From: Pseudonocardia sp. CNS-004
GTDB taxonomy: Bacteria > Actinomycetota > Actinomycetes > Mycobacteriales > Pseudonocardiaceae
Direction of reading: 5' to 3'
Length of the DNA: 64,000 nucleotides
NCBI GenBank assembly: GCA_001942185.1
Contig: MKJV01000068.1
Span: 186,001-250,000, forward strand
A program made the translations under genes and the position numbers. This document shows positions 20,226 through 39,995 of the stretch, one piece after another; the stretch's first letter is position 1, and every line of letters starts with the position of its first letter. The notes under the pieces were generated by a model that had not been told where the DNA came from, ran no database searches, and saw only the letters and a program-made list of their open reading frames with translations.

Positions 20226-20243
20226 CGTCAGGCGTCCGTCAGG
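20226..20243 (+). promoter_or_regulatory. 11-base direct-repeat box 1 (CGTCAGG/CGTCAGG)
   Basis: CGTCAGGCGTCCGTCAGG: two exact 7-base copies starting 11 bases apart, 137 bases before the STAS gene and oriented toward it. An 11-base (one helical turn) spacing is typical of OmpR/PhoB-family response regulators. This is the best copy of a ten-member set spread over 20.2-40.0 kb. Confidence 0.65.
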
Positions 20244-20379
20244 CCGAGGGACCCACTGATGGCCTCGCGTAGGTGGACCCTGAGGTGTCCCGAACAGGTG
20301 GCGACCGGGAGTGGGTGCTGTGCGGAATCGCAAGGTCGAGATCACCTAGGGCGCACAGCCGCCACCGCGGCACGCGCTC

Positions 20380-20766
20380 GTGGTCCTGCGCGGCGAGATC
20401 GCATTCGACACAGCGCCGCTCGTACGGGGGCAGCTGCTCGAGACGGCTCGGCATTCGTCGCTCGACCTCGTCGTCGATCTGTCCAGGACATCATTCCTCG
20501 ACTGCTCCGGCATGGCCACGATCGCCGCTGCCCGTGATGCCCTTGGCGCACGCGGCCGTTCACTGGTCCTGCGCGGCGCACACGGAGTCGCGCACCGGGC
20601 ACTCGCCATGACCGACCTCGCCGAGTTGCTCGAGGACGACTGCGGGGCAGGTCCAGACCCCAGCGGTCATCAGCGCACAGGGCCGCTCACCTCGCCGTGT
20701 GGATCTCCCACTGGTCCTCGCCGATCGCCCGGAGGAGGAGAGAGCGCGTGCTCACGACAATCCTGA
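20380..20766 (+). CDS. STAS-domain protein (anti-sigma factor antagonist-like)
   Basis: The conserved core LDLVVDLSRTSFLDCSGM matches STAS anti-anti-sigma factors. The Ser of DCSG is the usual phosphorylation site, and the GRSLVLRGAHG strand follows. The start is uncertain: GTG at 20380 is the only start after an in-frame stop at 20347, and it leaves the domain a few residues short at the N-terminus. The 40-residue Pro/Gly-rich tail runs into the next gene. No partner kinase is adjacent. A direct-repeat box lies upstream, linking it to the local two-component system. Confidence 0.65.
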   Translation: MVLRGEIAFDTAPLVRGQLLETARHSSLDLVVDLSRTSFLDCSGMATIAAARDALGARGRSLVLRGAHGVAHRALAMTDLAELLEDDCGAGPDPSGHQRTGPLTSPCGSPTGPRRSPGGGESACSRQS

Positions 20767-21215
20767 TCGTGATCGTCGCGCTGGTGGCGCTGCTGATCGC
20801 CACCGGCGTGCGCCCGGTGCAGCAGTACCAGCGCGGCGTCGTGCTGCGCTTCGGCCAACTGCTGCCCCAGGTCCGTCAGCCTGGCCTGCGCACGATCGTG
20901 CCGATCGCCGACCAGATGGTGAAGGTGCCCGTGCAGACGGTCGTCCTCGACGTCCCGCCCCAGGGCGCCATCACGAAGGACAACGTCACGGTCAGCGTGG
21001 ACGCCGTCGTGTACTTCCGGGTCACCGACCCGGTGAAGGCGGTGGTGAACGTCGAGGACTACGTCGGCGCCATCTCGCAGGTCGCCCGCACGTCTCTGCG
21101 ATCGGTCATCGGCCGGGCCGACCTGGACACCATGCTGTCCGATCGCGAGCAGGTGAACGCCGAGCTGCGCGCGGTACGGCCGGCGCACCGATCAGGGGAC
21201 GCGCGATCGCGGTGA
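20748..21215 (+). CDS. SPFH/stomatin-like membrane protein, truncated
   Basis: GTG at 20748 preceded by a strong GGAGGAGG. One N-terminal membrane helix (LTTILIVIVALVALLIATGV) is followed by the band-7 core: GVVLRFGQLLPQVRQPGLR, DNVTVSVDAVVYFRVTDP, and ARTSLRSVIGRADLDTMLSDRE. Homologues have 250-300 residues; this one loses homology after ~145 and stops at 155. The lost part normally carries the coiled coil for oligomers. No reading frame downstream restores it, so a genuine truncation is more likely than a simple missing base. Confidence 0.7.
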   Translation: MLTTILIVIVALVALLIATGVRPVQQYQRGVVLRFGQLLPQVRQPGLRTIVPIADQMVKVPVQTVVLDVPPQGAITKDNVTVSVDAVVYFRVTDPVKAVVNVEDYVGAISQVARTSLRSVIGRADLDTMLSDREQVNAELRAVRPAHRSGDARSR

Positions 21216-21307
21216 GCAGCTGCCTGACCGTTGTTGCGAGGATGCTCCCCCGCTCATGGCGCGCCGGTCCCGCCGATCGCGGCGAGCTCCTGTCTTCTCC
21301 TGGGTTT

Positions 21308-21323
21308 CTGACGAACACCTGAC
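21308..21323 (-). promoter_or_regulatory. 11-base direct-repeat box 2
   Basis: CTGACGAACACCTGAC on the plus strand (TGTCAGGTGTTCGTCAG on the minus) repeats CTGAC exactly 11 bases apart. It lies 112 bases before the four-helix membrane protein at 21435, in the opposite orientation to boxes 1 and 5. Confidence 0.55.
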
Positions 21324-21434
21324 AACCTCGGTCGGTACCGGATTCCGATGTGGGAGCACCCGCAGCGCGGGGACACCAGCAGTGTCGCCGCGGGGACGCT
21401 CTCCCGTGGCCCCTCCCACGTCATGGAGGTTCCG

Positions 21435-22184
21435 ATGTTCCTGACCGCGCGCATCCTGGGCCTGACCCTCGTCTCGCTGTTCGTGGCCGTGGGTCTCGTC
21501 GTCGCCGGCACGGCCCTCCCCCTGACCATCGCCCTCGGAGTACTGGCGGCCTTGGGGGCGCTGTGCATCCGGCAGGAAGCGCCCCGGGCGGCGACCCTCC
21601 GTTCCAGGTTTAGCCACGTCGGGCTCGCGGTCGGGACCGCCCTCGGGTTCGTGGGCGTCGTGTACACCGTGATCGGGATGATCGCCGTACTCGGTGGTGC
21701 GGCCACTGCGGTGGCCGCGGTCGCGGCGTTGGCGCTGCTCGGCTACCGACACAGGCGGCGCGCCACGGTGCGGGATGCCGACCCCGTCGCCGGGTGCGGG
21801 GCGGACTCCGGCGATGTGGCACAGGTGGCCTCCGAGAACGCCCGCACCGACGTCCGTGTCCGCCGACCGATGCCCCCTGATCCGGCCGCCCTGTCCACGG
21901 CTGAGCTCTGTCGCGCTTGGCGGGTGAGCTACCTCCTGCTCCAGGGAACACGGTCCCTGGAGCAGCTCGAGGACACCGCCGAGCTCCGACAGCGCTACCT
22001 GGACGAGCTGGCCAACCGCGATCCGGAGGGGTTCTGCCGGTGGCTCGACGACGGCGCCCGGGCCGCAGGCGACCCGTCCCCCTACGTCAACCCGTCCGGC
22101 CGACTCGACCGGGACGAGGACCAGGCTGCCTGGCGCCCGCCGCGGCCCGGTCCGTCCCCCGGCCCCGCGGAGGGCAGCTCGTGA
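21435..22184 (+). CDS. Membrane protein with C-terminal conserved helical domain, unknown function
   Basis: ATG with GGAGG seven bases upstream; 249 residues, intact. The N-terminal half has four predicted membrane segments (LTLVSLFVAVGLVVAGTAL, then a pair around 60-110). After a polar linker comes LCRAWRVSYLLLQ...RQRYLDELANRDPEGFCRWL, a helical module I recognise from uncharacterised actinobacterial proteins. No catalytic motif is seen. A direct-repeat box upstream places it in the putative stress regulon. Confidence 0.7.
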   Translation: MFLTARILGLTLVSLFVAVGLVVAGTALPLTIALGVLAALGALCIRQEAPRAATLRSRFSHVGLAVGTALGFVGVVYTVIGMIAVLGGAATAVAAVAALALLGYRHRRRATVRDADPVAGCGADSGDVAQVASENARTDVRVRRPMPPDPAALSTAELCRAWRVSYLLLQGTRSLEQLEDTAELRQRYLDELANRDPEGFCRWLDDGARAAGDPSPYVNPSGRLDRDEDQAAWRPPRPGPSPGPAEGSS

Positions 22185-22354
22185 TGCGCGCAGCGCGCGG
22201 CGTGGTGCTGCGGGTCCTCACCGGGAGCGACCTGTCGGACCTCCTCCAGCCCGCTCCTGACGATGAGTGCCCGCGGCCGTCGGACCGGCGAGCGCGAGCC
22301 GTCCCGCCGGCGCCACCGGCCGCCCCACGCGTCGGATCGCAAGCCGGTACCTGA
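22184..22354 (+). CDS. Small coupled ORF, hypothetical
   Basis: An ATG overlaps the previous stop (TGATG), giving 56 residues: RAARGVVLRVLTGSDLSDLL, then a Pro/Arg-rich tail. Translational coupling is the only support; codon bias cannot separate it from noise at this length. The second copy of box 3 begins just after its stop. Confidence 0.3.
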   Translation: MRAARGVVLRVLTGSDLSDLLQPAPDDECPRPSDRRARAVPPAPPAAPRVGSQAGT

Positions 22355-22368
22355 CGATGCACTGACGA
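22351..22368 (-). promoter_or_regulatory. 11-base direct-repeat box 3
   Basis: CTGACGATGCACTGACGA: two exact CTGACGA copies 11 bases apart, immediately after the small ORF. The nearest clear target is the lipoprotein-MMPL operon at 22876, which also has box 4, so a tandem arrangement is possible. Confidence 0.55.
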
Positions 22369-22875
22369 AGTGCCGCCGGCAGGCTTCGTGATCCCCATTC
22401 CGGCCTGGGGGCAGGCTAGAACTGCGGTGGTGGCCGGCGCCCCCGCACTGCAGGAGTCGGGGTCCGCGGACGACCGGCGCGTGAGCCGACTGGGGAGCCC
22501 GCTCACTCGGCGAGGCGCCCGGATCCCGAGCAGACCCTGCACCCGGGGCCGCCAGCCACCACCCCACAACCGCCAGTGCCGTCACCGCCAGGCCGGGTAG
22601 CTACTCGGCGTGGACCATCCGAGCGACCTGGTGGGAGGGTGCCCGTGACGGGAGTCGAGCCGCACGTGCTGCCCCGCGTCCGGTCCTTCCGGCCGGCGAT
22701 CCAGCTGCACCACCCCCACCTCCGGTCGCGTGTCCGGGACGCGAAGTGCGACCCGTCGAGCGACTGACGGGAACGACAGGACACCGTCAGGTCCCGGGCC
22801 TCCGACCTGCGCGAACAGCGGGTAGCCGACCGGTGGAACGGGGACCGGCCCCGTCGCACGTCCGAGGAGCACCAC
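22355..22875. other. Intergenic region without a supported gene
   Basis: 521 bases. Short open frames exist on both strands but none has a ribosome site, a domain or coherent composition. The region holds direct-repeat boxes 3 and 4 and probably the promoter of the lipoprotein-MMPL operon. Confidence 0.6.
22774..22791 (+). promoter_or_regulatory. 11-base direct-repeat box 4
   Basis: CGACAGGACACCGTCAGG: 7-base copies with one mismatch, 11 bases apart, 85 bases before the lipoprotein gene and facing it. Confidence 0.55.
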
Positions 22876-23521: not shown

Positions 23522-23568
23522 CCAGCGTGCGGCCCGCGGCCGTGGGCCGAGGGCCGGATCGGTGAGCG

Positions 23569-24201: not shown

Positions 24202-24208
24202 GAACGCG

Positions 24209-26431: not shown

Positions 26432-26457
26432 CGAGAACGGCAGCTACTCGCAACGGA

Positions 26458-26554: not shown

Positions 26555-26962
26555 ATGACCCACGCTGCAGCGATGCTCGAGACGTACCCCGCGGACCTCG
26601 GCGGCGCCGACCTGCAGAAGCTCGCGACCTGCATCCAGGAGTGCTTCTCCTGTGCACAGAGTTGCACCGCGTGCGCCGATGCGTGCCTGAGCGAGGAACA
26701 GGTCGCGGAGCTGACCAAGTGCGTTCGGTCGAACCTGGACTGCGCGGACATCTGCGACACGACCGGCCGTGTGCTGTCGCGGCACACCGGCTACGACGCG
26801 AACCTCACCCGCGCCGTGCTCGAGGCGTGCGTGCAGGCGTGCAAGTCCTGCGGCGACGTCTGCGCCCAGCACGGCGAGATGGGCATGCAGCACTGCCAGG
26901 TCTGCGCCGATGAGTGCCGACGGTGCGAGACGGCCTGCCGAGAGCTGATCGCCACCCTGTGA
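26555..26962 (+). CDS. Cys-rich four-helix copper-storage protein (Csp/DUF326-like)
   Basis: 135 residues with 18 Cys, mostly spaced CxxC or CxxxC on helices: ECFSCAQSCTACADAC, CVQACKSCGDVC, HCQVCADECRRCETAC. This is the pattern of cytosolic Csp3-type four-helix bundles that bind many Cu(I) ions in the core. No signal peptide, so cytoplasmic. Most other genes nearby lack Cys-rich stretches. It sits 224 bases before a PCuAC-like lipoprotein gene, which hints at local copper handling. Confidence 0.88.
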   Translation: MTHAAAMLETYPADLGGADLQKLATCIQECFSCAQSCTACADACLSEEQVAELTKCVRSNLDCADICDTTGRVLSRHTGYDANLTRAVLEACVQACKSCGDVCAQHGEMGMQHCQVCADECRRCETACRELIATL

Positions 26963-27124: not shown

Positions 27125-27142
27125 CGACAGACGATCGTCAGG
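27125..27142 (+). promoter_or_regulatory. 11-base direct-repeat box 5
   Basis: CGACAGACGATCGTCAGG: one mismatch between 6-base copies 11 bases apart, 44 bases before the lipoprotein at 27186 and facing it. This is the closest box to a start codon in the set. Confidence 0.55.
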
Positions 27143-27880: not shown

Positions 27881-29248
27881 TCACCGGTCCGCCGTCCGGT
27901 CAGTCGACGACGACCGCGCGCCGCCGCCAGGTCGGTCCTCGATCCACACGCGGCCCCGGAGATGGCGAATGTGCTGCGCAACCAGCGCGAGTCCGAGCCC
28001 GCTCCCCCCGCCCTGCCCTCGTTGGCCCGCCTGGACGCCGCGAGCGAAGCGCTCGAACACCCGCTCCCGCAGCTCCTCGGGAACGCCTGGACCCGTGTCG
28101 TCGACCTCGAGGCGGGCGCATCCACCCGCTCGCAACACGGCCACCCGCACCGCGCCTCCCGCGTACCGGTCGGCGTTGTCGAGCAGGTTGGCGACGATGC
28201 GGTCGAGCCGGCGCCGGTCGCCCTGCACCAACGGCGCCGGCTCCTCGACCTCTACCGACTCCGACGCGCGCGACCGCGCGGCGAGAACGTTGTGCACCAG
28301 ATCGCCCAGGTCCACGATCTCGCCGGCCGGTCCGTCGGTCTGCTGATCATCACGGGAGATCTCGAGCAGATCGACCACCATCCGCTCGAACCGTGCCACT
28401 TCCGAGAGGAGGAGGTCGAGGGCCTGGCCGGCAGTTCCGGTGAGCTCACGGCGACGACGCCGGAGCACCGCCGCGGCGTTCGCCATCGTCGTGAGCGGCG
28501 ACCGCAGCTCGTGGCTCACGTTCCCCGCGAACCGCACGTCACGCCGGACGCGCGCCTCCAGGGCCTCGGCCGTGTCGTTGAAGGCCGACGCGAGCGCGGC
28601 GAGATCGCGGTCGCCGTGGTGCGGAAGGCGGGTCTGCATCTCCCCGCTCGCGAAGCGCGACGCGGCGGCCGTCAGCTCGGTCAGCGGGCGCAGGGCACGC
28701 CGGCTCGCCCAGGCGCCGAGCGCGAAGCCCAGCAGACCGCTCGACGCGGCGCCGGCCACGAGGACGGTGCCGAGGAACCTCAGCGTTCGATCCAGCTCCA
28801 GGAGCGGGAAGAGCTCGACGAAGATGTCGGACCCGGTCCCGGTCTCGACGGCGACGGCCATCACCGGGACCCGCTCCACCACGAGCCGCTGGCTGGCCGG
28901 AACGCCGCCGGCGGCCTGCTCCAGCAACGAGTCGGGCAGCAAGGCCGGGTCGATCCGACGTCCGCTGGTGATCCATCCCCCGGACCGCAGGAGCAGCACC
29001 GAGGACGGGGACTCGGAGCTCAGCCCGGCGAGCAACTCGTCGAGACCCTCCGACCCGGTCCGCAGAGAGTTCGCGACGAGCAGGGCGTTGACCTCGGCCT
29101 GGCGCACGGTGCTCAGCTCGCGCTGGCGCAGCATGTAGTCGCTGGCGAGATTCCAGGTCGCGGCGGCGAGGATGCCTGTGAGCAGCAGCGCGCCCAGCCC
29201 GAAGGCGGTGGCCACCCGCCAGCGCAATGCGAGCCGCACGATGTGCAC
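27881..29248 (-). CDS. Sensor histidine kinase, HAMP/HisKA type
   Basis: GTG start 12 bases after the response-regulator stop. One membrane helix at residues ~15-33 and another at ~158-180 bracket an outside sensor domain, followed by HAMP (SRRALRPLTELTAAASRF). The H-box is AGNVSHELRSPLTT (His246), the N-box NLLDNADRYA (~355), then DDTGPGVPEE and GSGLGLALV. As sequenced the last codons run past a stop that a single restored base would place at 27900-27902 (VVVD end). Resembles CseC/MprB-type envelope sensors. Cognate regulator lies directly upstream. Confidence 0.9.
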   Translation of the reverse strand: MHIVRLALRWRVATAFGLGALLLTGILAAATWNLASDYMLRQRELSTVRQAEVNALLVANSLRTGSEGLDELLAGLSSESPSSVLLLRSGGWITSGRRIDPALLPDSLLEQAAGGVPASQRLVVERVPVMAVAVETGTGSDIFVELFPLLELDRTLRFLGTVLVAGAASSGLLGFALGAWASRRALRPLTELTAAASRFASGEMQTRLPHHGDRDLAALASAFNDTAEALEARVRRDVRFAGNVSHELRSPLTTMANAAAVLRRRRRELTGTAGQALDLLLSEVARFERMVVDLLEISRDDQQTDGPAGEIVDLGDLVHNVLAARSRASESVEVEEPAPLVQGDRRRLDRIVANLLDNADRYAGGAVRVAVLRAGGCARLEVDDTGPGVPEELRERVFERFARGVQAGQRGQGGGSGLGLALVAQHIRHLRGRVWIEDRPGGGARSSSTDRTADR

Positions 29249-29260
29249 ACGGGCCTCGTC

Positions 29261-29945
29261 TCATCCGGTGGTGCCCGCCTTGTACCCGCTCCCGCGCACG
29301 GTGAGCACGCAATCAGGGCGTCCGGGTCGCGCTCGATCTTGCGCCGGAGCCGCCGGATGTGGACGTCCAGCAGCCGGGTGTCCCCGAAGTAGTCGTACCC
29401 CCACACCCGCTTCAGCAAGTCCTCGCGTGTCACGACGCGGCCGTCGGCCGCGGCGAGCTCGACCAGCAGGCGGAACTCGGTGCGGGTCAGGTGGACCTCC
29501 GTCCCCGCCCGGCGAACGACCTCCTCCTCGGGGACGATCTCGACCTCCCCGATGCGCAGCGAGGCCGAGCCTCGTCGCCGTGGTGCCGGCGTCGCAGCAG
29601 CGCCCGGATGCGGGCGGCGAGCTCGCTCGCGATCAGTGGCTTCGTGACGTAGTCGTCCGCGCCCGCCTCCAGGCCCTCGATCACATCCGCCGAGTCCGTC
29701 CTCGCGGAGACGATGATGATCGGCAGGTCGCCGCGGGCGCGGAGCGTACGGCACACGTCCAAGCCGTCCACGCCCGGCAGCATCAGGTCGAGCAGGACGA
29801 CATCGACGCTGGTCGTCCTCAGGACCTCGAGCGCCTCCTCGCCCGAGGCGGCCTGGACGACCTCACACCCCTCGTCCGCGAGCGCCAGCCCGAGAGCCTG
29901 TCGGATCCGCTCGTCGTCCTCGACCAACAGGAGCCGCGCCTGCAT
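29261..29945 (-). CDS. OmpR-family response regulator
   Basis: ATG at 29945 behind a strong GGGGAGG. The receiver domain shows the acidic pocket EDD (9-11), phospho-acceptor Asp53 in LLDLMLPG and Lys102 in VTKPL. The winged helix includes VHLTRTEFRLLVELA, TREDLLKRVWGYDYFGDTRLLDVHIRRLRRK. Two frame changes (near 29575 and 29310) each fit one missing base; the second restores the standard end LTVRGSGYKAG. OmpR proteins bind tandem half-sites about 11 bases apart, as in the boxes around this locus. Confidence 0.9.
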
Positions 29946-30201
29946 GCCGGTACCTCCCCTGCCTCGTGGCCGAGCCCACGCTGGGGGATGGTGTGCCCGC
30001 GATTCGTCGGCCCGCCTCAGCGGTCTCGCGAAGCCGGTACCCGGCCAAGCGGTGCACCAACTCGTCCAAGGATCCAGCAGGGACCTGGCCACGCAGCTCC
30101 GCCGCCGCCTCCTCGACCTCGGCTTCCACAGCCGCAGTCGACAGCCCGTCGAACTCCTGGGCGAGCCGGCGGGCGATCGCGGCCCGTGTCGGTCCTTGCA
30201 T
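29863..30201 (-). CDS. Small helical protein upstream of the two-component genes
   Basis: ATG at 30201 has an excellent GGAGG four bases upstream. The first ~65 residues (GPTRAAIARRLAQEFDGL, AAVEAEVEEAAAELRGQ, SLDELVHRLAGYRLRETAEAG) look like the short three-helix dimerisation proteins common in actinobacteria. As sequenced the frame runs 83 bases into the response-regulator gene; a missing base near 29990 could give an earlier stop. Probably first gene of the operon with the regulator and kinase. Function unknown. Confidence 0.55.
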   Translation of the reverse strand: MQGPTRAAIARRLAQEFDGLSTAAVEAEVEEAAAELRGQVPAGSLDELVHRLAGYRLRETAEAGRRIAGTPSPSVGSATRQGRYRHAGAAPVGRGRRADPTGSRAGARGRGV

Positions 30202-30539
30202 GATCCTCCGATCGCCGACCTGGGCCCTGAATTCTCCCGCATCCGCCAGGGCGGGCGAGGTCCGTCGGACCACTCCCCGTCCATTTGCAAGTCGAGTGTC
30301 AGGTGCCGTTCCACAGACCCATGGACTGCCGCGCCGTTCGCGCTCCGGCCCCTGACGATCTCCTGACGAGTGGCTCGGGAACGAAGTCCTCGACGCTTGG
30401 ACTGGGTAGGCCCTCGGTGGGAGGCGATCGAGTTGACGACCTGGCCGGTCCGCGTGCTCCCCGGGGAAGTCCCGGTGGAGAGTGGGCCGCCGGGCGCGTG
30501 GGCGGCGCCCGCACACCCCTCCCGCGGGCGTCGCCCCTC
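30202..30539. other. Intergenic region with two-component operon control DNA
   Basis: 338 bases between the small helical gene and the YihY remnant. Contains direct-repeat box 6. A few weak open frames cross it but none has domain content or a ribosome site I trust. Confidence 0.55.
30352..30369 (-). promoter_or_regulatory. 11-base direct-repeat box 6, likely autoregulatory
   Basis: CTGACGATCTCCTGACGA; on the minus strand TCGTCAGGAGATCGTCAG. Two perfect 7-base copies 11 bases apart, pointing toward the two-component operon that starts 151 bases away. Best candidate for self-control by the response regulator. Confidence 0.65.
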
Positions 30540-30790: not shown

Positions 30791-30800
30791 CGACGGTGCT

Positions 30801-31348
30801 GTGGGTGGTCACGAGGCGCGCGCCCGAGGGCAGTTCGACATGTGCCGCAACGGCCGCTGCACCGAGCGCGGCATCAAGGAGCGCGACGGCTGTGCCAGCG
30901 GGACCTGGGTCGTCGAACCCGGCTACGCCGTGAAGCTGGATCCCGGCCTCGCGGACGTCGGGATGCTGCTGGAACCGGCCGGCGTGGTCGCCAAGGCGTG
31001 GGACTCGGTCGACCTGGTCGGCTCCCGGGCGAACCGCGGACGGCGCTGGTCACCGGCGCAGGCCCATCGGGCTGCTCGCCGCCCTGATCGGCACCCAACG
31101 GGGGCTGGACGTGCACGTCCTGGACCGGGTCACCGACGGGCCGAAGCCGGCCCTCGTACGTGACCTCGGCGCGAGCTACCACAGCGAGAGCATCGACGAC
31201 GTCGCCCGCGCCGTGCGCCCGGACGTCGTCATCGACGCCACCGGCGCCGGCCCGGTGATCGGTGCCGCTGGAGGCGTTCGCCGAGGCCTTCACCGCCCGG
31301 CCGGACGACGTCAAGGTCGTCATCACGCCAAACGGCGCCCGCCCCTGA
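30801..31348 (+). pseudogene. Glucose 1-dehydrogenase (zinc-type MDR) remnant
   Basis: The pieces GQFDMCRNGRCTERGIKE, VEPGYAVKLDPGLADVGMLLEP, LVTGAG-GLLAALIGTQRGLDVHVLDR and PALVRDLGASYHSES belong to the zinc-dependent glucose 1-dehydrogenase family, in order but across frames. The first ~80 residues are gone. After VVIDATGAGPVIGA some 75 residues are missing before the C-terminal end RPDDVKVVI. Two large losses plus frame changes mark a dead gene. It adjoins the YihY remnant with no gap. Confidence 0.7.
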
Positions 31349-31370: not shown

Positions 31371-31388
31371 CGTCAGCGCATCGTCAGG
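31371..31388 (+). promoter_or_regulatory. 11-base direct-repeat box 7
   Basis: CGTCAGCGCATCGTCAGG: 6-base copies 11 bases apart, 86 bases before the permease gene at 31474 and facing it. It lies just after the dehydrogenase remnant, so the promoter of the live transporter operon has been kept. Confidence 0.6.
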
Positions 31389-31473: not shown

Positions 31474-32781
31474 ATGCGGCATCTCATGGTCCTGTTGCTT
31501 CTCGTGGTCGCGGCGTTGCTCACGCCGTCTGCCGCCGCGGCCGCCCAGGACGGTGAGGCCGTCGGGGGGACGCTGCGGGGTCCGGACGGCGAGCCGGTGG
31601 CCGGCGTGACGATCAGGGTCGAGCGGGCCGGTCAGGAGATCGCGACCGCGACCAGCGGCCCGGACGGCCGCTGGCGGGCCGCGGTACCCGCGCCCGGCGA
31701 CTACGACGTCACCCTCGACACCGGCACGCTCCCCGACGCGCTGACCCTCCGCGAGCCGGACGCGGCGACGCTGCGCGCCGTCACGATCCGTCCCGGACAG
31801 CAGCGCACCGTGCTGTTCCCGATCGTCTCCGCGGCCGACCCGGCACCCGGTGGGGCACCCGGGCTCCCGCCCGCACCGTCCGGGCCGGGAAGCGCCGCCG
31901 TCCTCGCGCAGCTCACCCTCGCCGGCATCAAGTTCGGCGCCATCATCGCGATCACCGCCATCGGGCTCTCATTGATCTTCGGGACGACCCACCTGATCAA
32001 CTTCGCGCACGGCGAGCTGGTGACGATCGGCGCGATGGCCGCCTTCTTCCTCAACGCGGCGACCATCGGACCGGGCTGGGACCTCATCCCCTCCGCGCTC
32101 GTGGCCATCGCGATCGGAGCGCTCGTCGGCGCCGTCCTCGAGCGGGCGTTGTGGCGGCCGCTGCGCATCCGCGGCACCGGGCGCATCCAGCTGTTCATCA
32201 TCTCGATCGGGCTGTCCCTGCTGCTGCGCCACCTCCTGCTGGTGATCTTCGGTTCGCGGCCGCGCCCGTACACCGACTACGTCATCCAGCGGGCCGTGGT
32301 CATCGGACCGATCGCCATCACCCCGCGCGATCTCGTCATCACCGTGCTCTCGATCGTCGTGCTGGTGGCCGTGGGGCTGATGCTGCTGCGCACCCGGATC
32401 GGCAAGGCGATGCGGGCGGTCTCGGACGACCGCGAGCTGGCCGAGGCGTCGGGAGTGGACGCCGCGAGGGTCGACCTCTACGTGTGGGCCCTCGGCGGCG
32501 GCCTGGCGGCGCTCGGCGGCGTGCTCTTCGGCCTCTCCGAGGTCGTGAGCTGGGACATGGGCTTCCGCCTGCTGCTGTTGATGTTCGCCGCCGTGATCCT
32601 CGGCGGGCTCGGCAGCGCGTTCGGCGCGATGGTCGGTGGGCTGGTCGTCGGCCTCATCGCACAGCTGTCCACCGCATGGTTCCCCGTCGAGCTGCAGAAC
32701 GCCTGGGCGCTCGGCCTGCTGATCCTCGTGCTGCTCGTGCGCCCGCAAGGCGTCTTCGGCCGCGCGGAACGAATCGGTTAG
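31474..32781 (+). CDS. livH: Branched-chain amino-acid-type ABC permease (LivH) with extra N-terminal domain
   Basis: 435 residues from ATG behind GGAG. Residues 1-24 are a signal peptide (LMVLLLLVVAALLTPSAAA). Residues ~30-115 resemble a carboxypeptidase-regulatory/SdrD-like beta domain (GTLRGPDGEPVAGVTIRVE...GPDGRWRAAVPAPGDYDVTLD). The LivH permease follows: AITAIGLSLIFGTTHLINFAHGELVTIGA, EAA loop VSDDRELAEASGV, and the end VRPQGVFGR. Ordinary LivH has ~290 residues. The outside domain might contact the binding protein. First gene of livHMGF, box 7 upstream. Confidence 0.88.
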   Translation: MRHLMVLLLLVVAALLTPSAAAAAQDGEAVGGTLRGPDGEPVAGVTIRVERAGQEIATATSGPDGRWRAAVPAPGDYDVTLDTGTLPDALTLREPDAATLRAVTIRPGQQRTVLFPIVSAADPAPGGAPGLPPAPSGPGSAAVLAQLTLAGIKFGAIIAITAIGLSLIFGTTHLINFAHGELVTIGAMAAFFLNAATIGPGWDLIPSALVAIAIGALVGAVLERALWRPLRIRGTGRIQLFIISIGLSLLLRHLLLVIFGSRPRPYTDYVIQRAVVIGPIAITPRDLVITVLSIVVLVAVGLMLLRTRIGKAMRAVSDDRELAEASGVDAARVDLYVWALGGGLAALGGVLFGLSEVVSWDMGFRLLLLMFAAVILGGLGSAFGAMVGGLVVGLIAQLSTAWFPVELQNAWALGLLILVLLVRPQGVFGRAERIG

Positions 32782-32789
32782 GGGGCGGC

Positions 32790-33848
32790 ATGGATGTGAT
32801 CGCCATCCTCGCCGACGCCACGCGGAGCGCCCTCGGTCCGGTCGCGGCGCTCTACGCGCTCGCCGCCATCGGGCTCAACATCCACTTCGGGTACACGGGA
32901 CTGCTGAACTTCGGGCAGGTCGCGTTCATGCTCGTGGGCGCGTACGGCGTGGCCGTGCCGGTCGCGGTGTACGGCGGGCCGCTGTGGCTCGGGGTGCTCG
33001 TCGGCCTGGCGCTCGCCGTCGTCCTCGCGCTGCTGCTCGGCGTCCCCACCCTGCGGCTGCGCGCCGACTACCTCGCGATCGCGACGATCGCCGCGGGCGA
33101 GGTGCTGCGCATCGTCTTCAACGCGGGCTTCGCCCAGCCCGTCACCGGCGGGGTGTTCGGCCTGTCGCAGTTCGCCGGGCCGTTCTACGCCGCCAACCCG
33201 GTGCCGCCCGGCGCGTACGGCCTCGGGCCGCTGGTCTTCGGCAACCGGGACGTGTGGGTGATGATCGTCGGCTGGGGCGCCGTCGCGCTGGCCACCGTGG
33301 GCGTGTTCCTGCTCGTGCGCAGCCCGTGGGGACGCGTGCTGCGCGGCGTCCGCGAGGACGAGGACGCCGTGCGCAGCATCGGCAAGAACGTGTTCGGCTA
33401 CAAGATGCAGAGCCTGGTGCTCGGCGGGGTGCTCGGTGGCGCCGGAGGAATCCTGCTGGCCGTCGACGCGCAGGCGGTGACGCCCAACACCTTCAACCCG
33501 GTGGTGACGTTCTACCTCTACACGCTGGTCATCCTCGGCGGCGCCGGCACCGTGCTCGGGCCGGTCCTCGGCTCGGTGGTCTTCTGGTTCCTGCTCTCGT
33601 TCGCCGACAGCGCGCTGCGCCAGGCCATCGGGGCCGGCTACATCCCACCTCAGGTGATCGACCCGGCGGACGTCGGCGCCCTGCGGTTCGCGCTCGTCGG
33701 GCTCGGGCTGATGCTGCTGCTGGTCTTCCGGCCGGCAGGCATTCTCGGCAACCGCGCCGAGATGCGCCTCGGTGCCGGTGGCTCGGGCGTCCGGCGCCGC
33801 CGCCTGCCACGCGCGACGCGGAAGCCGGTCGAGGGAGCGAGCCGATGA
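32790..33848 (+). CDS. livM: Branched-chain amino-acid-type ABC permease (LivM)
   Basis: 352 residues, intact, eight bases after livH. It shows YALAAIGLNIHFGYTGLLNFGQVAFM, the LivM signature, then PTLRLRADYLAIATIAAGEVLRI and the EAA-like loop VREDEDAVRSIGKN. Eight to ten membrane segments, basic C-terminal tail. Forms the translocation pore with LivH. Confidence 0.92.
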   Translation: MDVIAILADATRSALGPVAALYALAAIGLNIHFGYTGLLNFGQVAFMLVGAYGVAVPVAVYGGPLWLGVLVGLALAVVLALLLGVPTLRLRADYLAIATIAAGEVLRIVFNAGFAQPVTGGVFGLSQFAGPFYAANPVPPGAYGLGPLVFGNRDVWVMIVGWGAVALATVGVFLLVRSPWGRVLRGVREDEDAVRSIGKNVFGYKMQSLVLGGVLGGAGGILLAVDAQAVTPNTFNPVVTFYLYTLVILGGAGTVLGPVLGSVVFWFLLSFADSALRQAIGAGYIPPQVIDPADVGALRFALVGLGLMLLLVFRPAGILGNRAEMRLGAGGSGVRRRRLPRATRKPVEGASR

Positions 33849-34686
33849 CGCCGCACGACGCCCTCTCCGGGGTCCCCGCCGAGCCCGGCGTCCCGAAGCC
33901 CGACCCAGTGCTCGTCGTGGACGGCGTGTGCAAGGACTTCGGCGGTGTCCGCGCCGTCGACGTCGAGCACCTCGAGGTGCAACGCGGGGTGATCACCGCC
34001 CTCATCGGCCCGAACGGGGCGGGCAAGTCCAGCCTGTTCAACGTCCTGACCGGGTTCGCCCGGGCGGACGCCGGTCACTGGACGTTCGACGGACGCGGTG
34101 CCGCCGGCCTTCCCGCGCACCGGCTCGCGCTTCGCGGCATGGTCCGCACCTTCCAGCTCACCCGTGTCCTGCCGCGGCTCACCGTTCTGGAGAACATGAC
34201 GATCGCGGCCACCGGGCAGCGCGGGGAGCGGTTCCTGCCGGCGTTCCTGCGGCCGGCCTGGCGCCGGCAGGAGCGCGACATCGAGCGGCGTGCCGACGAG
34301 CTGCTGGAGCGGTTCCGCCTCGCCGACACGCGCGACGACTACGCGGGCTACCTGTCCGGCGGGCAGCGCAAGCTCCTCGAGGTGGCGCGCGCGCTCATGG
34401 TCGACCCCGCCCTCGTGCTGCTCGACGAACCGATGGCCGGGGTGAACCCCGCGCTGCGGCAGAACCTCCTCGCCCACATCGCGCGCTGCGCGATTCCGGC
34501 CACACGGTGCTGTTCGTCGAGCACGACATGGACGTGGTGATGGCGATCAGCGACTGGGTGGTGTGCATGGCAGAGGGGCGCGTCATCGCCGAGGGGCCGT
34601 CCGCCGCGGTGGCGGGCGACCGCGCCGTGATCGACGCATACCTGGGTTCGCACCACGACGAGCCCGAGTTCCGGGAGGGCCGATGA
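33845..34686 (+). CDS. livG: Branched-chain amino-acid-type ABC ATPase (LivG)
   Basis: ATG overlapping the livM stop. Walker A GPNGAGKSS, Q-loop RTFQLTRVLPRLTVLENM, signature LSGGQRKLLEVARAL, Walker B LVLLDEPMAGVNP. The frame changes near 34492, one missing base, before HTVLFVEHDMDVVM. About 280 residues. Confidence 0.9.
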
Positions 34687-35414
34687 ACGACGCGCCACTG
34701 CTCGCCGCGGAGGCGGTGGTCGCCGGCTACCTCCCCGAGGTGAACATCCTGAACGGCTGCGACCTGCACCTGGCGCGGGGCGAGATCATCGGGATCATCG
34801 GGCCGAACGGGGCGGGGAAGTCGACGCTCGTGAAGGCGGTGTTCGGGCTGCTGCCGATCCGATCGGGCACGATCGAGCTGGAAGGTGAGGACATCGTCGA
34901 CCTGCGGGCCCACGAGATGGTGTCGCGCGGCGTGGGCTACGTGCCGCAGACCCGCAACGTCTTCCCCACGCTCACCGTGGAGGAGAACCTGCAGATGGGG
35001 CTGTACCAGCAGCCCAGGCGCTTCGCGGAGCGGTTGCGGGCCGTCGCCGACCTCTTCCCGCTGCTGGCCCAGCGGCGCGGCCAGCGCGCCGGTTCGCTGT
35101 CCGGGGGCGAGCGGCAGGTCGTCGCCATGGGCAGGGCCCTGATGCCGGAGCCCAAGGTCCTGCTCCTCGACGAGCCGTCGGCCGGGCTCTCCCCCGTCGC
35201 GCAGGACGACGCGTTCGCCCGGATCAGGGCGGCCAACGAGGCGGGCGTCTCCATCGTCATGGTCGAGCAGAACGCCCGCCGCTGCCTCGAGATCGCCCAC
35301 CGCGGCTACGTGCTCGACCAGGGCCGCAACGTGCACACCGGCACGGGCCGGGAACTGCTGCGCGACGAGGCCGTGGTCGAGCTGTACCTGGGGACGCTGG
35401 CGCGGGCCCGTTAG
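34683..35414 (+). CDS. livF: Branched-chain amino-acid-type ABC ATPase (LivF)
   Basis: 243 residues, intact, overlapping livG by four bases. Walker A GPNGAGKST, signature LSGGERQVVAMGRALM, Walker B VLLLDEPSAGLSP, switch region VMVEQNARRCLEIAHRGYVL. Ends 22 bases from the convergent binding-protein gene. Confidence 0.92.
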   Translation: MNDAPLLAAEAVVAGYLPEVNILNGCDLHLARGEIIGIIGPNGAGKSTLVKAVFGLLPIRSGTIELEGEDIVDLRAHEMVSRGVGYVPQTRNVFPTLTVEENLQMGLYQQPRRFAERLRAVADLFPLLAQRRGQRAGSLSGGERQVVAMGRALMPEPKVLLLDEPSAGLSPVAQDDAFARIRAANEAGVSIVMVEQNARRCLEIAHRGYVLDQGRNVHTGTGRELLRDEAVVELYLGTLARAR

Positions 35415-35436
35415 GGTCACCGCCCGCGCGCCCGCC

Positions 35437-36713
35437 TCACTGCTGCTGCAGCGTCGACTGCACGGTGTCGAGGACGACGAGGGAACCCTGGTCGTCGAAC
35501 GAGTACACCTCGATCGACGCCGTGCCCGGCTCACCGGCGGGGATGAACTCGAGCGGCCCGCTCGCGCCGTCGTAGTCGATGTTCTGGCCGTCGGCGACGA
35601 GCCGCTGGCAGTCGGCGAAGCTCGTGCACTTCGTGCCGTCCTCCGTCACGCCCACGATCTCGTTCGAGAACACGCTCGGGTCGTCGGTCCCGGCGACGGC
35701 GGCGGCCAGCGCGATGATGTTGACGCAGTCGTACACCTGCGGGGCGAACTGCACCTCGGTGAGGCCGGGCGCGAACCGGCGCAGGTCGGTGAGGAACTGC
35801 TCGTTGGCCGCGGATGCGGGCGCCGTGCCCTTCATCCCCTCCAACACCCCGGGGTTGCCCGGGGCGACGAGCTCGGGCAGGTCCTCGCTGCGCATCCCGT
35901 CGGCGCCGAAGAGGCCGGCCGCGCCGGGGCCCATCCCGGCCTCGATCAGGCCCTGCAGGATCCGCGTGCCCTCCTCGAAGGCGATCACGACCACGGCGTC
36001 CGGCTGGGCGGCGTCGACCTGCTGCACGAGCGCGTCGAAGTTCTGGGCGTTCGGGTCGTAGGTCTCGTTCATCAGCACGGTCGCGCCCGCCTCCTGCAGC
36101 GACCGGGCGGTGGCATCGGCCAGCCCGACACCGTAGTCGTCCGCGCGGGCGGCGATCGCCACCCGGGCGTGCCCGTCGGCGATGATCGTCTCGGCCAGGA
36201 TCGGGCCCTGCAGGGCATCGCTCGGCGCCGTGCGGAAGTAGTAGCCGTGGTCGTCGTAGTCGGTGAAGGTCGGCGCGGTGTTCGACCCGGAGCACTGGAC
36301 GACCTGGGCGCCGGTGATCCGGTCGATGACGGCCAGCGACATGCCGGACGCGGCGGCTCCGACGATCGCGTCGACTCCGGTCGCGAGCACCCGGTCGGCG
36401 GACTGCTGTGCCACGGCGGCCTGGTCGGACTCGTCGCCGCCCACCAGGTCCGGGATCGGCTGCCCGAGCACCCCGCCCGCCTCGTTGATCTGCGAGACGG
36501 CGTACCGGGCGGCCTCGATCTGCGGCGGGCCGAGGAACGCGAGCTGACCGGTCTGCGGCAGCACGTACCCCAGGTTCAGCTCCCCGTCGCCACCTGCTCC
36601 CACGGCCGGAGGTGCGCCGGCGACTGCACCTGCCCTCCACCGTCCACCCCGCACCCGGCCACGACCAACGTCACCGCCGACAGCCCTGCCACCATCCGCC
36701 ACTTGCTGCTCAT
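35437..36713 (-). CDS. Periplasmic-binding lipoprotein for the liv transporter (LivJ-like)
   Basis: ATG at 36713 gives a leader with a lipobox (LSAVTLVVAGC). A frame change near 36610 (one missing base) leads into LNLGYVLPQTGQLAFLGPP and AVSQINEAGGVLGQPI, a type I receptor-family binding protein. Two probable disulphide pairs lie in QVYDCVNII and GTKCTSFADCQRL. About 425 residues. Convergent with livF rather than inside that operon, but box 8 upstream suggests shared control. Confidence 0.85.
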
Positions 36714-36797
36714 CGCTTCCATCCCAGATCCGGAGTCGTAGCGGTCCTCCCAGCGGGTTGCCGCAGCGGGCGCAGGCGGAATCGGCGGCTCGCGGGT

Positions 36798-36814
36798 CGT
36801 CAGCGAATCGTCAG
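36798..36814 (+). promoter_or_regulatory. 11-base direct-repeat box 8
   Basis: CGTCAGCGAATCGTCAG: two 6-base copies 11 bases apart, 85 bases upstream of the binding-protein gene, in reverse orientation to it. The rest of 36714-36911 has no gene. Confidence 0.55.
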
Positions 36815-36911
36815 CAGCCGCATCGGTCGGTGTCGGTCTTGTCGAGCTCGCCCTCGTCGGTCGCCGCGTCGGCGGTGTGCCCGATCCCCGGCGGCCGCAA
36901 CGCTCCTCCGC

Positions 36912-37523
36912 CTAACGCGGCCGGCCCTCGCGCACTTCGCGTCCGTCGACCACCTCGGACTGTTCCGTGCCGTTGCGCGCGGGCTCCTCCCCGGCGGTCG
37001 GCTGCTGCCCGGGTTCGGGTTCGCCTGCGACGCGGACGGGGCGACGCATCCTGCCACCGAGGATGCCGCCGACGGCCGCCAGCACGAGCCCCACCAGCAA
37101 CGACCAGAAAGCGGTCCACATGCCGGACGCGGGGGTCAGCGGGCCGGCCTGCGGCATGCCACCGCCGGCGAGGCTCGCGGCCCCGGGCAGCACAGCGGCC
37201 ACCGACAGGATGAACAGCAGACCCCACGCCGCGATCCCGTTCACCAACCCGGCCAGCGTGCCTCGCACGCCGGCGAGTGCGCCCGCGACCCATCCCGCGA
37301 TCAGCAAGGAGACCGCTGCCGTGACGCCGGCGAACCAGCCCAGGTGGACACCGACCAATCCGGCGCCCGCGCTGAACGCGACGGCGAACCACAGCGAGTT
37401 CAGCAGCGCGAAAAAGCCCAACCCGATGATCACACCGGCGAACACCGGGCCCCACCGGACGAGATCGGGGGTCCGGGTGACCGTCGTGTCATCGTGCCGC
37501 AGCCGGCTCTCGACGAATGCCAT
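36912..37523 (-). CDS. Four-helix membrane protein, unknown function
   Basis: 203 residues, intact, ATG at 37523 with AGGAG upstream. Membrane segments lie near residues 25-50, 55-80, 88-110 and 135-160, with Gly/Ala-rich helices (GVIIGLGFFALLNSLWFAVA, VAGALAGVRGTLAGLVNGI). The tail is acidic and polar. The type is common in actinobacteria without known function. Box 9 upstream faces it. Confidence 0.7.
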   Translation of the reverse strand: MAFVESRLRHDDTTVTRTPDLVRWGPVFAGVIIGLGFFALLNSLWFAVAFSAGAGLVGVHLGWFAGVTAAVSLLIAGWVAGALAGVRGTLAGLVNGIAAWGLLFILSVAAVLPGAASLAGGGMPQAGPLTPASGMWTAFWSLLVGLVLAAVGGILGGRMRRPVRVAGEPEPGQQPTAGEEPARNGTEQSEVVDGREVREGRPR

Positions 37524-37596
37524 GTCCTCTTCTCCTTTCCGCACATCGCCACATCGCCGGGTGCCCGGCCTGCCGTCGCTGGACTCGCCGGCCAGG

Positions 37597-37611
37597 TGAC
37601 GGTCTCCTGAC
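37597..37611 (-). promoter_or_regulatory. 11-base direct-repeat box 9
   Basis: TGACGGTCTCCTGAC on the plus strand (GTCAGGAGACCGTCA on the minus), TGAC copies 11 bases apart, 74 bases before the four-helix protein and facing it. Confidence 0.5.
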
Positions 37612-37632
37612 ACCTGGCAGCTTCGGTCGCGG

Positions 37633-38821
37633 CTAGAAGCGGCACGCGCCGACCGCCACCTCCTGGTTGCGGCGGATGGCCCCATCGACGACCGGGCGGA
37701 CCTCGTCGACGGCGAGCGCAGGCCGTGCCGCCGCTCGGATCGCCGGCGAAGACGACGCCGCCGACGAGCCCGTCACCGGTGACGAACGGCCCTCCGGAGT
37801 CGCCCCGCTCGACCGACGTGGAGAGCGCGATGATCTCGCGACGCACCCGGCGGTCGCCGTAGATGTCCCGCCCGATCGCATCGAGATCCGCCACCACCGT
37901 CGCCGGCCGCACCACCATCTCGGAACGCCCGCCCGGGAACCCGAGCGTCACCCCCTCGACACCGCGCACGGCGGGGACACTCGCCCATCCGATCGCGGGC
38001 GCCCCGACGCCCGGCGCGGCCAGCACGGCGAGGTCGAGCGCCGGGTCGACGTGGATTGCGACCGCGTCGTGCTCGCCCGCCGAGTCGTGCACCGTCAGCC
38101 GGCTGAAACCCGCCACCACGTGCGCGTTCGTGACGACGAATCCCGCGTGCGGCACGAATCCGGAGCCGGATCCGACGATTCCGCCACAGCCGGACGCCCG
38201 GATCCGCACCGTGCTGGGCTGCCCGGCAGCGGCCGCCGACCGCACTGCCTCGGTCGCCGTCGAAGGCACGGGTGGCGCCGCGATCCCCCCGCCTCCCGGT
38301 TGCACGAACACCTGCGGGAAACCCTGGTCGTCGAGGAACGCCGAGATGCGGCCGAGGACGTCGGGTGGCGGTGGCAACGCGGCGTCGAGCGCCCGCACCA
38401 CCTCGGAGCCGCGGACCTGCCGGGCGAGCGCCGGGATCGGCCCCTGCGCCAGCACGGTCGACAGCAGCCACACGACGAACAGGAGCCCCGCGGCACCAGC
38501 CGCGACACCCACGCTCCGATCGATCCGGCCGATCCCGGCCGACCTCGCGGCCCTGCGCAGCCGAAGCCCGATGCCCAGGCCGAGTCCCTGACCGACCAGA
38601 GCAACGACGAGGACCAGACCGACCGTCAGCAGCGCGGTGGTCGGCCCGGGTTCGGAGACGAAGAGCCCGACGATCCGCGGTGCCGCCCACGCGCCGGCAA
38701 GCAGACCGAGCGCGAGACCCCCGAACGCGGCGATCTGCGACACCGCCCCCTGCCGCCAGCCGCGCAGCGCCACGTACACGAGCAGGAGCACCAGCACTGC
38801 GTCGAGCAGGTTCGGGGCCAT
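37633..38821 (-). CDS. MarP-like membrane serine protease (CvpA plus trypsin-like domain)
   Basis: ATG at 38821. The first ~125 residues form a four-helix CvpA domain (NLLDAVLVLLLVYVALRGWRQG). A linker leads to a chymotrypsin-fold protease with triad His in VTNAHVVAG, Asp in DPALDLAVLA and Ser in VERGDSGGPFV. Two Cys that could form the regulatory disulphide of MarP are present, one in ASGCGGI and one at the C-terminus. Frame changes near 37745 (two bases lost) precede the end DEVRPVVDGAIRRNQ. MarP protects mycobacteria from acid and oxidative stress, which fits a stress regulon. Confidence 0.85.
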
Positions 38822-38985
38822 GCGACCACCTCACCTCCCATCGGGGCAGCACCTCACCATGCTGCTCCGGCCGGCGGCCGGCAGCAGCTCGGCAATCGTC
38901 GGGAAGGCGCAAGGTTGGCGGGCCCGCGGTGACCCCGGCCCCGGGTAGGCCCCCGGAAGCGGAGGTCGAATGACGGGAGAAGGTC

Positions 38986-39318
38986 ATGGACGACAAGCCG
39001 CGGACCATCGGTGAGACGAGTGACGCGACCAGCACCCGGAGCGCCACGCGGAGCCGGATCAGCGGCCTGTGGGTGGGGCTGATCCTCTCGGCCGTCGTGC
39101 TGGTGTTCCTCCTGGTGTTCATCCTGCAGAACGGCACCCCGGTGCAGATCGCCTTCCTCGGCTGGACGGGAGCACTGCCCACGGGCGTCGCGCTCCTCTT
39201 CGCCGCGATCGCGGGACTGCTCCTGGTCGCGCTCCCCGGCAGCGTCCGCATCCTCCAGTTGCGCCGAGCGGCGGCGAGGGACCGTGCCCGCCCCGCCGAG
39301 CCTCGCGATCGGGGTTGA
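38986..39318 (+). CDS. LapA-domain (DUF1049) membrane protein
   Basis: 110 residues from ATG, with GGGAGAAGG upstream. A polar N-terminus is followed by two helices: WVGLILSAVVLVFLLVFILQNG, then LPTGVALLFAAIAGLLLVALPG, with the NGTPVQIAFLGWTG loop typical of LapA family members. Small inner-membrane protein of envelope stress regions; role unknown. Confidence 0.8.
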   Translation: MDDKPRTIGETSDATSTRSATRSRISGLWVGLILSAVVLVFLLVFILQNGTPVQIAFLGWTGALPTGVALLFAAIAGLLLVALPGSVRILQLRRAAARDRARPAEPRDRG

Positions 39319-39435
39319 CGAGGCGCGGGGGCCTGCAGACGGACGCAGGCCGCTCTCTGCCAAGGACCTGACGATGGCGCGCCGGCGGCGCGGGACCGGG
39401 GCCTGCGGGGTACGCCGGGCGAGGAGGTGGTGAGG

Positions 39436-39756
39436 ATGACGCCGCAGCCGGACGATCCCCGGCCACGACGGAGGGCCGATCGCGACCGGGACGACCACGA
39501 ACGGCTCGCAGGGGCGGCGGACGTCACCGCAGATGGCGATCTCCACGAGAGCATCGGGTACGCGGAACCGGTGTGGGTCCTGCCTTCGATCGTGCTGGGG
39601 TTCGTCGCGCTCACCGGGTCGGTGATGCTGTTCGTCGCCATCACGATCGTCGGGATCACCCTCCTGCTGATGAACACACCCCCAACCGAGCACGACCGGG
39701 ACACCTTCGGTCGAGCATGGCCCGGTCCCTTCGGGGGACCAGGCTTCCCGCTGTGA
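39436..39756 (+). CDS. Small membrane protein, unknown function
   Basis: ATG chosen over nearby GTGs because GAGGAGG sits eight bases upstream. 106 residues: an Arg/Asp-rich cytoplasmic head, then VLPSIVLGFVALTGSVMLFVAITIVGITLLL (a hydrophobic hairpin or one long helix) and a Pro/Gly tail. No family recognised. Confidence 0.6.
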   Translation: MTPQPDDPRPRRRADRDRDDHERLAGAADVTADGDLHESIGYAEPVWVLPSIVLGFVALTGSVMLFVAITIVGITLLLMNTPPTEHDRDTFGRAWPGPFGGPGFPL

Positions 39757-39914
39757 CCGCTCCGGCGCCGCGGAGCCTCGGCTGCCGGTCAGCTCTCACG
39801 ATGACCCGAGCAGCGCTTCGCGGTCGACTCCGAGATCCACCGACCCGACCGCCTCCCACGTTGCCTGACCCGGCGCTGGTGGTTCCCGCCGGCGGGCGCG
39901 GTGCGTACTACTGG

Positions 39915-39930
39915 GCGAACGTTCGTTCGC
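39915..39930. promoter_or_regulatory. LexA/SOS-box-like perfect palindrome
   Basis: GCGAACGTTCGTTCGC: perfect GCGAAC/GTTCGC arms around GTTC. It contains CGAAC-N4-GTTCG, the actinobacterial SOS box pattern (GAAC-N4-GTTC). No DNA-repair gene lies nearby; the first credible gene downstream is the DUF3040 protein, 337 bases away. Confidence 0.45.
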
Positions 39931-39978
39931 ACTCCGGTAGAAGGTGATCACGGCGGGATGCGGCGGCTTGCGGCCGTT

Positions 39979-39995
39979 GTCAGGCTTTCGTCAGG
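39979..39995 (+). promoter_or_regulatory. 11-base direct-repeat box 10
   Basis: GTCAGGCTTTCGTCAGG: GTCAGG copies 11 bases apart, pointing toward the DUF3040 and aquaporin genes, which are 272 and 592 bases away. Target uncertain. Confidence 0.5.

Follow-up and report, generated by a model that had tools for sequence, protein, structure and literature searches.

An 11-bp-spaced direct repeat around an OmpR/PhoB-type two-component system in Pseudonocardia sp. CNS-004, a candidate regulator binding site

Which protein, if any, reads a short direct repeat that recurs with one fixed period in part of the genome of the actinomycete Pseudonocardia sp. CNS-004? The repeat lies in a 64,000-nucleotide stretch (positions 186001-250000 of contig C68; hereafter, the window) of an assembly of 9.2 Mb in 156 contigs that is 83% complete. 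An initial annotation of the window described ten copies of CGTCAGG-N4-CGTCAGG, or close variants, and proposed that they form the regulon of the OmpR-type kinase and regulator pair encoded amid them. Here we report that nine of the ten copies stand out from chance, and that similar boxes accompany a paralogous system in the same genome, are enriched near related kinases, co-occur with such kinases across genomes and precede homologous target genes in relatives. From these sequence comparisons we consider it highly probable that the response regulator encoded at 29261-29945, under control of the sensor kinase encoded at 27881-29248, binds the nine sites, with a role in the envelope or osmotic-stress response being the most likely.

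Nine spaced repeats in one part of the window

All ten sequences of the initial annotation are present within 2 bases of the positions it gave. They were scored with a matrix derived from 66 sites, each with no more than one mismatch, in loci of other genomes, the window genome never being in the training set; the matrix was seeded with CGTCAG pairs from the same 40 loci that were later counted for sites near the kinase, an overlap that touches neither the window nor the Lentzea loci nor the period test. The matrix consensus is ATCGTCAGnnnATCGTCAGGt, a direct repeat of two 8-bp half sites with a 3-bp gap, in which the half sites are conserved and most of the gap and the flanks are variable. 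Nine sites in the window score 18.2-27.6 bits, all of them inside 20226-39994, against 0.2 chance hits per 64 kb at 18 bits in 10 Markov sequences, and the next-best matches in the window fall to 12.9 and 11.1 bits. Nothing in the window outside 20226-39994 reaches 18 bits, in agreement with the earlier statement that the flanks lack such sites. The repeats are real and the nine sites exceed chance; the tenth, at 37597, has three mismatches, scores at chance level (Table 1) and was rejected as a regulon member. The 11-bp period holds, with the repeated unit better written as ATCGTCAG than as CGTCAGG.

The spacing, too, is specific. In the window, CGTCAGG-N4-CGTCAGG has 2, 6 and 9 matches at up to zero, one and two mismatches, respectively. 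For 29 other spacings of the same pair there is no exact match; allowing one mismatch gives none or one, and allowing two gives 0-5, except for 11 at period 27. These period-27 pairs, frequent at two mismatches over the whole window, perhaps reflect coding periodicity. At three mismatches the CGTCAGG pair occurs 28 times in the window with a shuffle mean of 25.8, no excess, and the signal therefore lies in the strong matches. An element GGGTA/GGGAA, noticed by eye 29-33 bp beyond a few of the boxes in the window, was discarded, there being no conserved column at that distance in the 66 sites of relatives.

Across the assembly, CGTCAG-N5-CGTCAG occurs exactly eight times and its reversed control not once; five of these pairs lie in the present cluster within 17 kb, two on contig C90 and one on C140. 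With up to one mismatch the count rises to 72, against 34 for the reversed control, so that about half of the weaker genome-wide matches correspond to control level. The longer pattern WTCGTCAGNNNNTCGTCAGS matches 9 places when up to one mismatch is allowed, 7 of these falling in the two clusters, and has 40 matches at two mismatches, against 12 for its reversed control. On C90 the two boxes lie on either side of a second two-component system, a paralogue with kinase pieces 76% identical to the window kinase; one box is ~80 bp upstream of the piece that matches the regulator, the other ~160 bp before a gene for a beta-helix (NosD-like) lipoprotein. On C140 the box precedes, by 58 bp, a gene that by eye resembles a sugar dehydrogenase. 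Frames at 30774-31330 of the window, between the two-component operon and a liv-type transporter operon, match this boxed dehydrogenase-like gene (locus L002) in pieces and also match stretches in two Lentzea loci (L013, L016); they resemble a decayed copy of it next to the regulator.

The regulator of the window combines a receiver with a winged-helix output part and lies next to a sensor kinase, as in OmpR/PhoB-type systems, and direct-repeat sites ~11 bp apart are found in promoters, its own included, as in OmpR/PhoB regulons. Its reading frame shifts near the linker and again near the end, the output part lying in other frames in the window; this part is intact in relatives, and the regulator of locus L080 matches OmpR-family profiles over its full length. 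Since eight other regulator matches in the assembly, the C90 paralogue among them, are likewise split into adjacent pieces in different frames, sequencing error is a likely cause, but this strain may have lost regulator function. Apparent frame changes are seen as well in an ABC ATPase (33845-34686), a MarP-like protease (37430-38821) and an MIP channel (40581-41502), which suggest draft indel errors. The closest named relatives of the window kinase belong to Pseudonocardia and Lentzea. A small frame that overlaps the start of the regulator is similar, by eye, to the small gene preceding the regulator in relatives, a family present in 12 of the 42 loci that contain such systems.

Association of the box with related kinases

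Related kinases are taken here as matches at E <= 1e-50, mostly 52-77% identical, and were judged related by match score rather than by a tree; of 60 genomes in the genus, 39 have one, counting that of the window. Up to ~10 kb on each side of 40 kinases from the 38 other genomes were fetched, 740,266 bp in all, leaving out a second kinase match of genome G056 that is 42% identical. Exact CGTCAG pairs in this DNA number 45 at period 11 and 0-3 at each of 24 other periods (7 to 31). A ranking of all 6-mers by their recurrence at period 11, which presupposed no motif, placed CGTCAG and its complement first, with 45 occurrences and a control mean of 0.375 over eight other periods. Sites of at least 18 bits lie within 3 kb of the kinase in 35 of the 40 loci, and none occurs in Markov sequence of equal length.

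The same association is seen when whole genomes are compared. The extended motif TCGTCAGNNNNTCGTCAGS has 75 matches in 32 of the 39 kinase genomes and 3 matches in 2 of the 21 kinase-less ones (Fisher 5e-8, a value that is too small, as is the one given below, because the genomes are phylogenetically related and not independent); its reversed control has 1 match in kinase genomes and 0 in kinase-less genomes. Two hundred genomes were then drawn from the family, with kinase matches at E <= 1e-60 and 8 first-look candidates per genome scored. Among the 189 that lie outside the genus, the motif is present in 27 of 45 with the kinase and 21 of 144 without it (Fisher p = 8e-9), and 30 of the 85 sites, in 15 genomes, fall within 10 kb of a kinase; the reversed control pattern has 8 matches in the 200 genomes. 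In Lentzea, outside the training set, 10 of 12 loci (some of which share one genome) carry a site scoring 23 bits or higher, ~1.56 kb downstream of where the kinase starts, and two have none. In four of these loci (L005, L007, L009 and L012) the post-kinase box is ~80-90 bp before a frame that is followed by another, MarR-like by eye. The box is associated with this two-component family, and the link that these comparisons point to is strong.

Two readings that dispense with the regulator are hard to reconcile with this distribution. One is that the sites are a dispersed repeat or a coding periodicity without regulatory function, for which it can be said that the motif is short and that some matches in other genera are tandem, as in genome G061. 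A dispersed repeat would not be expected to conserve the half sites and leave most of the gap and flanks variable, nor to be so strongly intergenic and period-specific: among 96 sites above 15 bits in the 42 loci, only 10 are in predicted coding DNA (gene calls from a crude codon model), though 83% of the bases are coding. We regard this reading as extremely improbable. The tandem example consists of TCGTCAGCGA-type repeats at G061:C23:222766-222806, with similar ones in G106, G231 and G241, all genomes without a detected kinase; they are possibly coding repeats.

The other reading assigns the boxes to an activator of the Streptomyces antibiotic regulatory protein (SARP) type. SARPs use 11-bp-spaced repeats, and in two loci (L131, L132) boxes lie near a gene that is SARP-like by eye. 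Such a gene is present, however, in only 3 of the 42 two-component loci (one L080 query, E <= 1e-5), and the box follows the kinase, not the SARP, so that we give this possibility hardly any credence.

Some members of one group of regulators may have a binding site that has drifted. Among regulators with WGYEYHGDTRLL, three loci (L109, L110, L112) have weak reversed boxes of 20-21 bits and three (L105, L113, L114) have none nearby; the L106 regulator, of the same kind, has strong boxes.

Candidate targets and the likely signal

The nine sites and the genes near them are listed in Table 1. The MIP channel gene beyond box 9 is spread over three frames that score 48, 69.1 and 33.4 bits against a cut-off of 25.

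Table 1. Boxes and two-component genes in the window. Positions are those of the window; scores are from the matrix built on other genomes, except where another profile is named.
Feature	Position	Strand	Sequence	Score	Neighbouring genes and remarks
Box 1	20226..20242	+	CGTCAGGCGTCCGTCAG	27.1 bits	Exact genome-wide match; downstream STAS (frame from 20380; Pfam STAS) and SPFH/Band 7 (20748; Pfam Band_7) genes
Box 2	21308..21324	-	TGTCAGGTGTTCGTCAG	22.2 bits	Putative target frame 21435 (+), membrane protein by eye, without Pfam match; box orientation reverse
Box 3	22351..22367	-	CGTCAGTGCATCGTCAG	27.6 bits	Exact genome-wide match; intergenic, ~500 bp before lipoprotein gene 22876; putative target ambiguous
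Box 4	22774..22790	+	CGACAGGACACCGTCAG	18.2 bits	Lipoprotein-like gene 22876 starts 85 bp on, then 23569 and MMPL transporter 24209 (Pfam MMPL)
Box 5	27125..27141	+	CGACAGACGATCGTCAG	19.8 bits	45 bp to lipoprotein-like gene 27186; PCu(A)C match 26.4 bits, sub-threshold (cut-off 29.4)
Box 6	30352..30368	-	CGTCAGGAGATCGTCAG	25.8 bits	Small gene 150 bp on, then regulator and kinase; presumed autoregulation site
Box 7	31371..31387	+	CGTCAGCGCATCGTCAG	26.5 bits	~90 bp to liv-type transporter operon 31474-35414 (Pfam BPD_transp_2)
Box 8	36798..36814	+	CGTCAGCGAATCGTCAG	26.0 bits	~100 bp to periplasmic binding protein gene 35437-36702 (-) (Pfam Peripla_BP_6); box orientation reverse
Box 9	39978..39994	+	TGTCAGGCTTTCGTCAG	21.4 bits	Precedes frame ~40270, resembling DUF3040 by eye, and MIP channel gene ~40580-41500 in broken frames
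Tenth claimed site	37596..37612	-		11.1 bits	1.2 such matches expected by chance
Sensor histidine kinase	27881..29248	-			HAMP, HisKA, HATPase_c; related kinases occur in 38 other genomes of the genus
OmpR/PhoB-type response regulator	29261..29945	-		Response_reg 109.9 bits	Frame changed in two places
Small open frame	29863..30201 (ATG at 30201)	-			Overlaps regulator start; part of frame 29863-30516

In relatives, the commonest target is the regulator itself: in 20 of the 42 loci its gene begins no more than 350 bp from a box. Small genes belonging to one family are found equally close to a box in 6 loci, in 4 of which they stand ahead of the regulator. To these were added 99 further loci from kinase genomes (L138 being left out as a repeat of L116), which contain 117 exact sites, 73 of them at >=18 bits, after two sites of L131, from a genome without the kinase, had been subtracted from the 119 counted. 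Not all of the further loci are distal, L124 having a pair of this family within it. In kinase-less genomes, by comparison, 6 of 20 exact sites reach 18 bits or more, these 20, from 8 genomes and including 2 sites from L131, having been scored out of 41 exact sites in 21 genomes.

The listing of targets covers exact sites above 8 bits, the count of 117 covering all. Several targets of the window recur: boxed relatives of the PCu(A)C-like lipoprotein gene 27186 were found in L082, L085 and L119, and those of lipoprotein gene 22876 in L119 and L137, while the MMPL neighbour of 22876 has relatives, not all box-adjacent, in L119, L121, L127 and L158. DUF3040 genes are targets in L082-L084 (L082, 28.5 against a cut-off of 24.7). 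Other targets are a class A penicillin-binding protein in L127 (Pfam Transgly, Transpeptidase), which clusters with L106, L122 and L192 (a 15.6-bit site); EctB in L123 (640.3 bits against a cut-off of 552.2), which clusters with L099 and with an L124 frame that is cut by the contig end and has a 17.5-bit box; Na/H exchangers in L124 and L212; a ProP-like transporter in L212 (403, below the cut-off of 544), which clusters with L185; and YeaQ-like proteins in L092 and L173 (Transgly_assoc 20.3, below the cut-off of 25.3), the former sharing its box with a CsbD protein (56.2 against a cut-off of 40). Many further targets appear once each without clear function, including redox enzymes, dehydrogenases and permeases. 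These target types suggest that the system leans toward an envelope or osmotic-stress response.

The boxed homologous gene in L137 sits on a different contig from the kinase of the same genome. Because relatives have such boxed homologues away from the regulator, the description of the sites as a local regulon fits this genome, in which they are strongly clustered, better than it fits the family. That a regulator lies near some of its own targets is not unusual in itself.

In the mechanism that we infer, the kinase would sense a signal at the cell envelope and phosphorylate the regulator, which would bind ATCGTCAGnnnATCGTCAGG as a head-to-tail dimer, one monomer per 8-bp half site, the half sites being 11 bp, or about one helical turn, apart. 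The regulator would thereby control its own operon, the STAS-SPFH genes, the lipoprotein-MMPL operon, the second lipoprotein, the liv transporter with its binding protein and probably the MIP channel, and in related species the same kind of regulator would reach distant promoters too, most likely as part of an envelope or osmotic-stress response.

The pair might instead regulate these boxes in response to a metal such as copper, a reading that accepts the sites and changes the signal. It could draw on the PCu(A)C-like lipoprotein 27186, on a cysteine-rich gene at 26555-26962 (DUF326 over its cut-off, the Csp1 model at 23.3 against 100), on the NosD/beta-helix lipoprotein targets, which are over the cut-off, and on the window kinase itself, whose second-best profile is cztS_silS_copS (150.4 bits against a cut-off of 292.55). 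Copper-specific models, however, are mostly below cut-off, the cysteine-rich gene is inside the cluster with no upheld box in front of it, and the wider targets are penicillin-binding protein, ectB and exchangers; a metal signal thus seems unlikely to us. A structure model of the kinase made from 16 sequences (mean predicted local distance difference test 65.4, predicted template modelling score 0.39) matched mainly cytoplasmic kinase cores, CpxA and others, among the 50 of 625 Protein Data Bank matches considered, and is uninformative on the signal.

A number of observations weigh against the assignment of the nine sites to this regulator and to an envelope or osmotic-stress role. The regulator is frame-changed twice in this assembly, no ectB, ProP or penicillin-binding protein target was found in the window, and the proposed role is drawn from target annotation only. 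In five of the 40 loci no strong site lies closer than 3 kb to the kinase, and 7 of the 39 kinase genomes lack the exact extended motif, the regulator's own promoter having a weak box or none in several of them. Of the 85 sites outside the genus, 55 have no detected kinase within 10 kb, and the motif is carried by 21 genomes in which no kinase was detected; for Lentzea, period 11 stands out only weakly once one mismatch is allowed (17 matches, against 12 at period 18 and 10 at period 21). Finally, box orientation relative to starts within 350 bp is the same in 46 cases and opposite in 47; because both orientations are used about equally, we make no claim of activation or repression.

Comparison with known systems

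As far as the open-access literature searched goes, neither the motif nor the two-component family appears to have been named or described. Among the matches listed for Pseudonocardia regulons and ectoine, actinobacterial 11-bp repeats, MtrA in osmostress and MacR/MacS, no description of the motif was found in titles or the opening lines of abstracts, nor did a word search find GTCAG in a review of S. coelicolor two-component systems (PMC9739842). No open-access paper was found for GTCAGG as a DNA-binding motif of a Streptomyces response regulator, and a match to CGTCAGG in PMC3413638 lies in a PCR primer.

The PhoB/PhoP systems resemble the one described here in that direct repeats are bound by OmpR/PhoB-type regulators; they differ in their targets, and the L080 regulator scores 205.5 in the PhoB profile against a cut-off of 296.2. 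PhoB-type boxes have the 11-bp spacing, and PhoB/PhoP half sites are unlike those of this box. CseB-CseC of Streptomyces, linked to cell-wall integrity (PMC9739842), is likewise an OmpR-type pair, CseB being the second-best regulator profile. The assignment failed on score, with 232 against 350 for the L080 regulator (CseB) and with 80.1 and 79.3 against 700 for the L080 and window kinases (CseC).

The closest likeness is to MtrAB, in which an OmpR-type regulator is again paired with a sensor kinase; MtrA is the best full-length NCBIfam match of the intact L080 regulator. Neither component qualifies by score: for MtrA (NF040689, cut-off 300) the L080 regulator reaches 253.7 and the window regulator pieces 138.3 and 85.8, and for MtrB (NF040691, cut-off 450) the window kinase reaches 179.5 and that of L080 207.3. 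The assembly's own MtrA is encoded elsewhere (386.5 bits). According to one study (PMC3353115), MtrAB is highly conserved in actinobacteria, and the MtrA site of C. glutamicum is RTAACAATttnRTAACAAT, an 8-bp direct repeat with a 3-bp linker, with csbD among the targets and a role in osmostress; another (PMC13189361) gives MtrA sites as GtnAcC-n5-GTnAcn in Streptomyces and GTCACAgcg repeats in mycobacteria, and targets as proP and betP in C. glutamicum and ectABCD in S. venezuelae.

These parallels raise the question whether the box is a site of the conserved MtrA, the two-component system described here being merely one MtrA target. In both sources the MtrA sites are direct repeats spaced by roughly the same 11 bp, and the target types overlap (ectoine, proP, csbD). 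Yet the box is nearly absent (3 matches) from the 21 kinase-less genomes, in each of which the reported conservation leads us to assume that MtrA is present, the 3657-bp stretch around the assembly's own mtrA (L139) has no box above 12 bits, and the half site ATCGTCAG differs from RTAACAAT, GtnAcC and GTCACAgcg of the published accounts (PMC13189361, PMC3353115). We consider control by MtrA very unlikely and retain the regulator encoded amid the boxes as the candidate binding protein.

The pair studied here also differs from MtrAB in its patchy distribution and in the small gene found in front of it at some loci. The comparison suggests a system that operates along the lines of MtrAB in its layout, and perhaps its role, but that would not be filed as MtrAB. 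A wider picture, which we put forward tentatively, is that Pseudonocardiaceae possess, besides MtrAB, a second and patchily inherited MtrAB-like pair with a code word of its own (ATCGTCAG twice, 11 bp apart), serving a separate envelope or osmotic-stress regulon whose members, ectB among them in some species, lie in islands around the regulator and can be lost or duplicated jointly with it. An unnamed two-component family would gain a candidate binding motif, usable for regulon prediction in Pseudonocardia and Lentzea strains, together with a multi-species list of targets and a candidate signal; and the paralogous copies, set beside MtrAB, would offer a case of related regulators that diverge in their DNA code while keeping similar kinds of targets.

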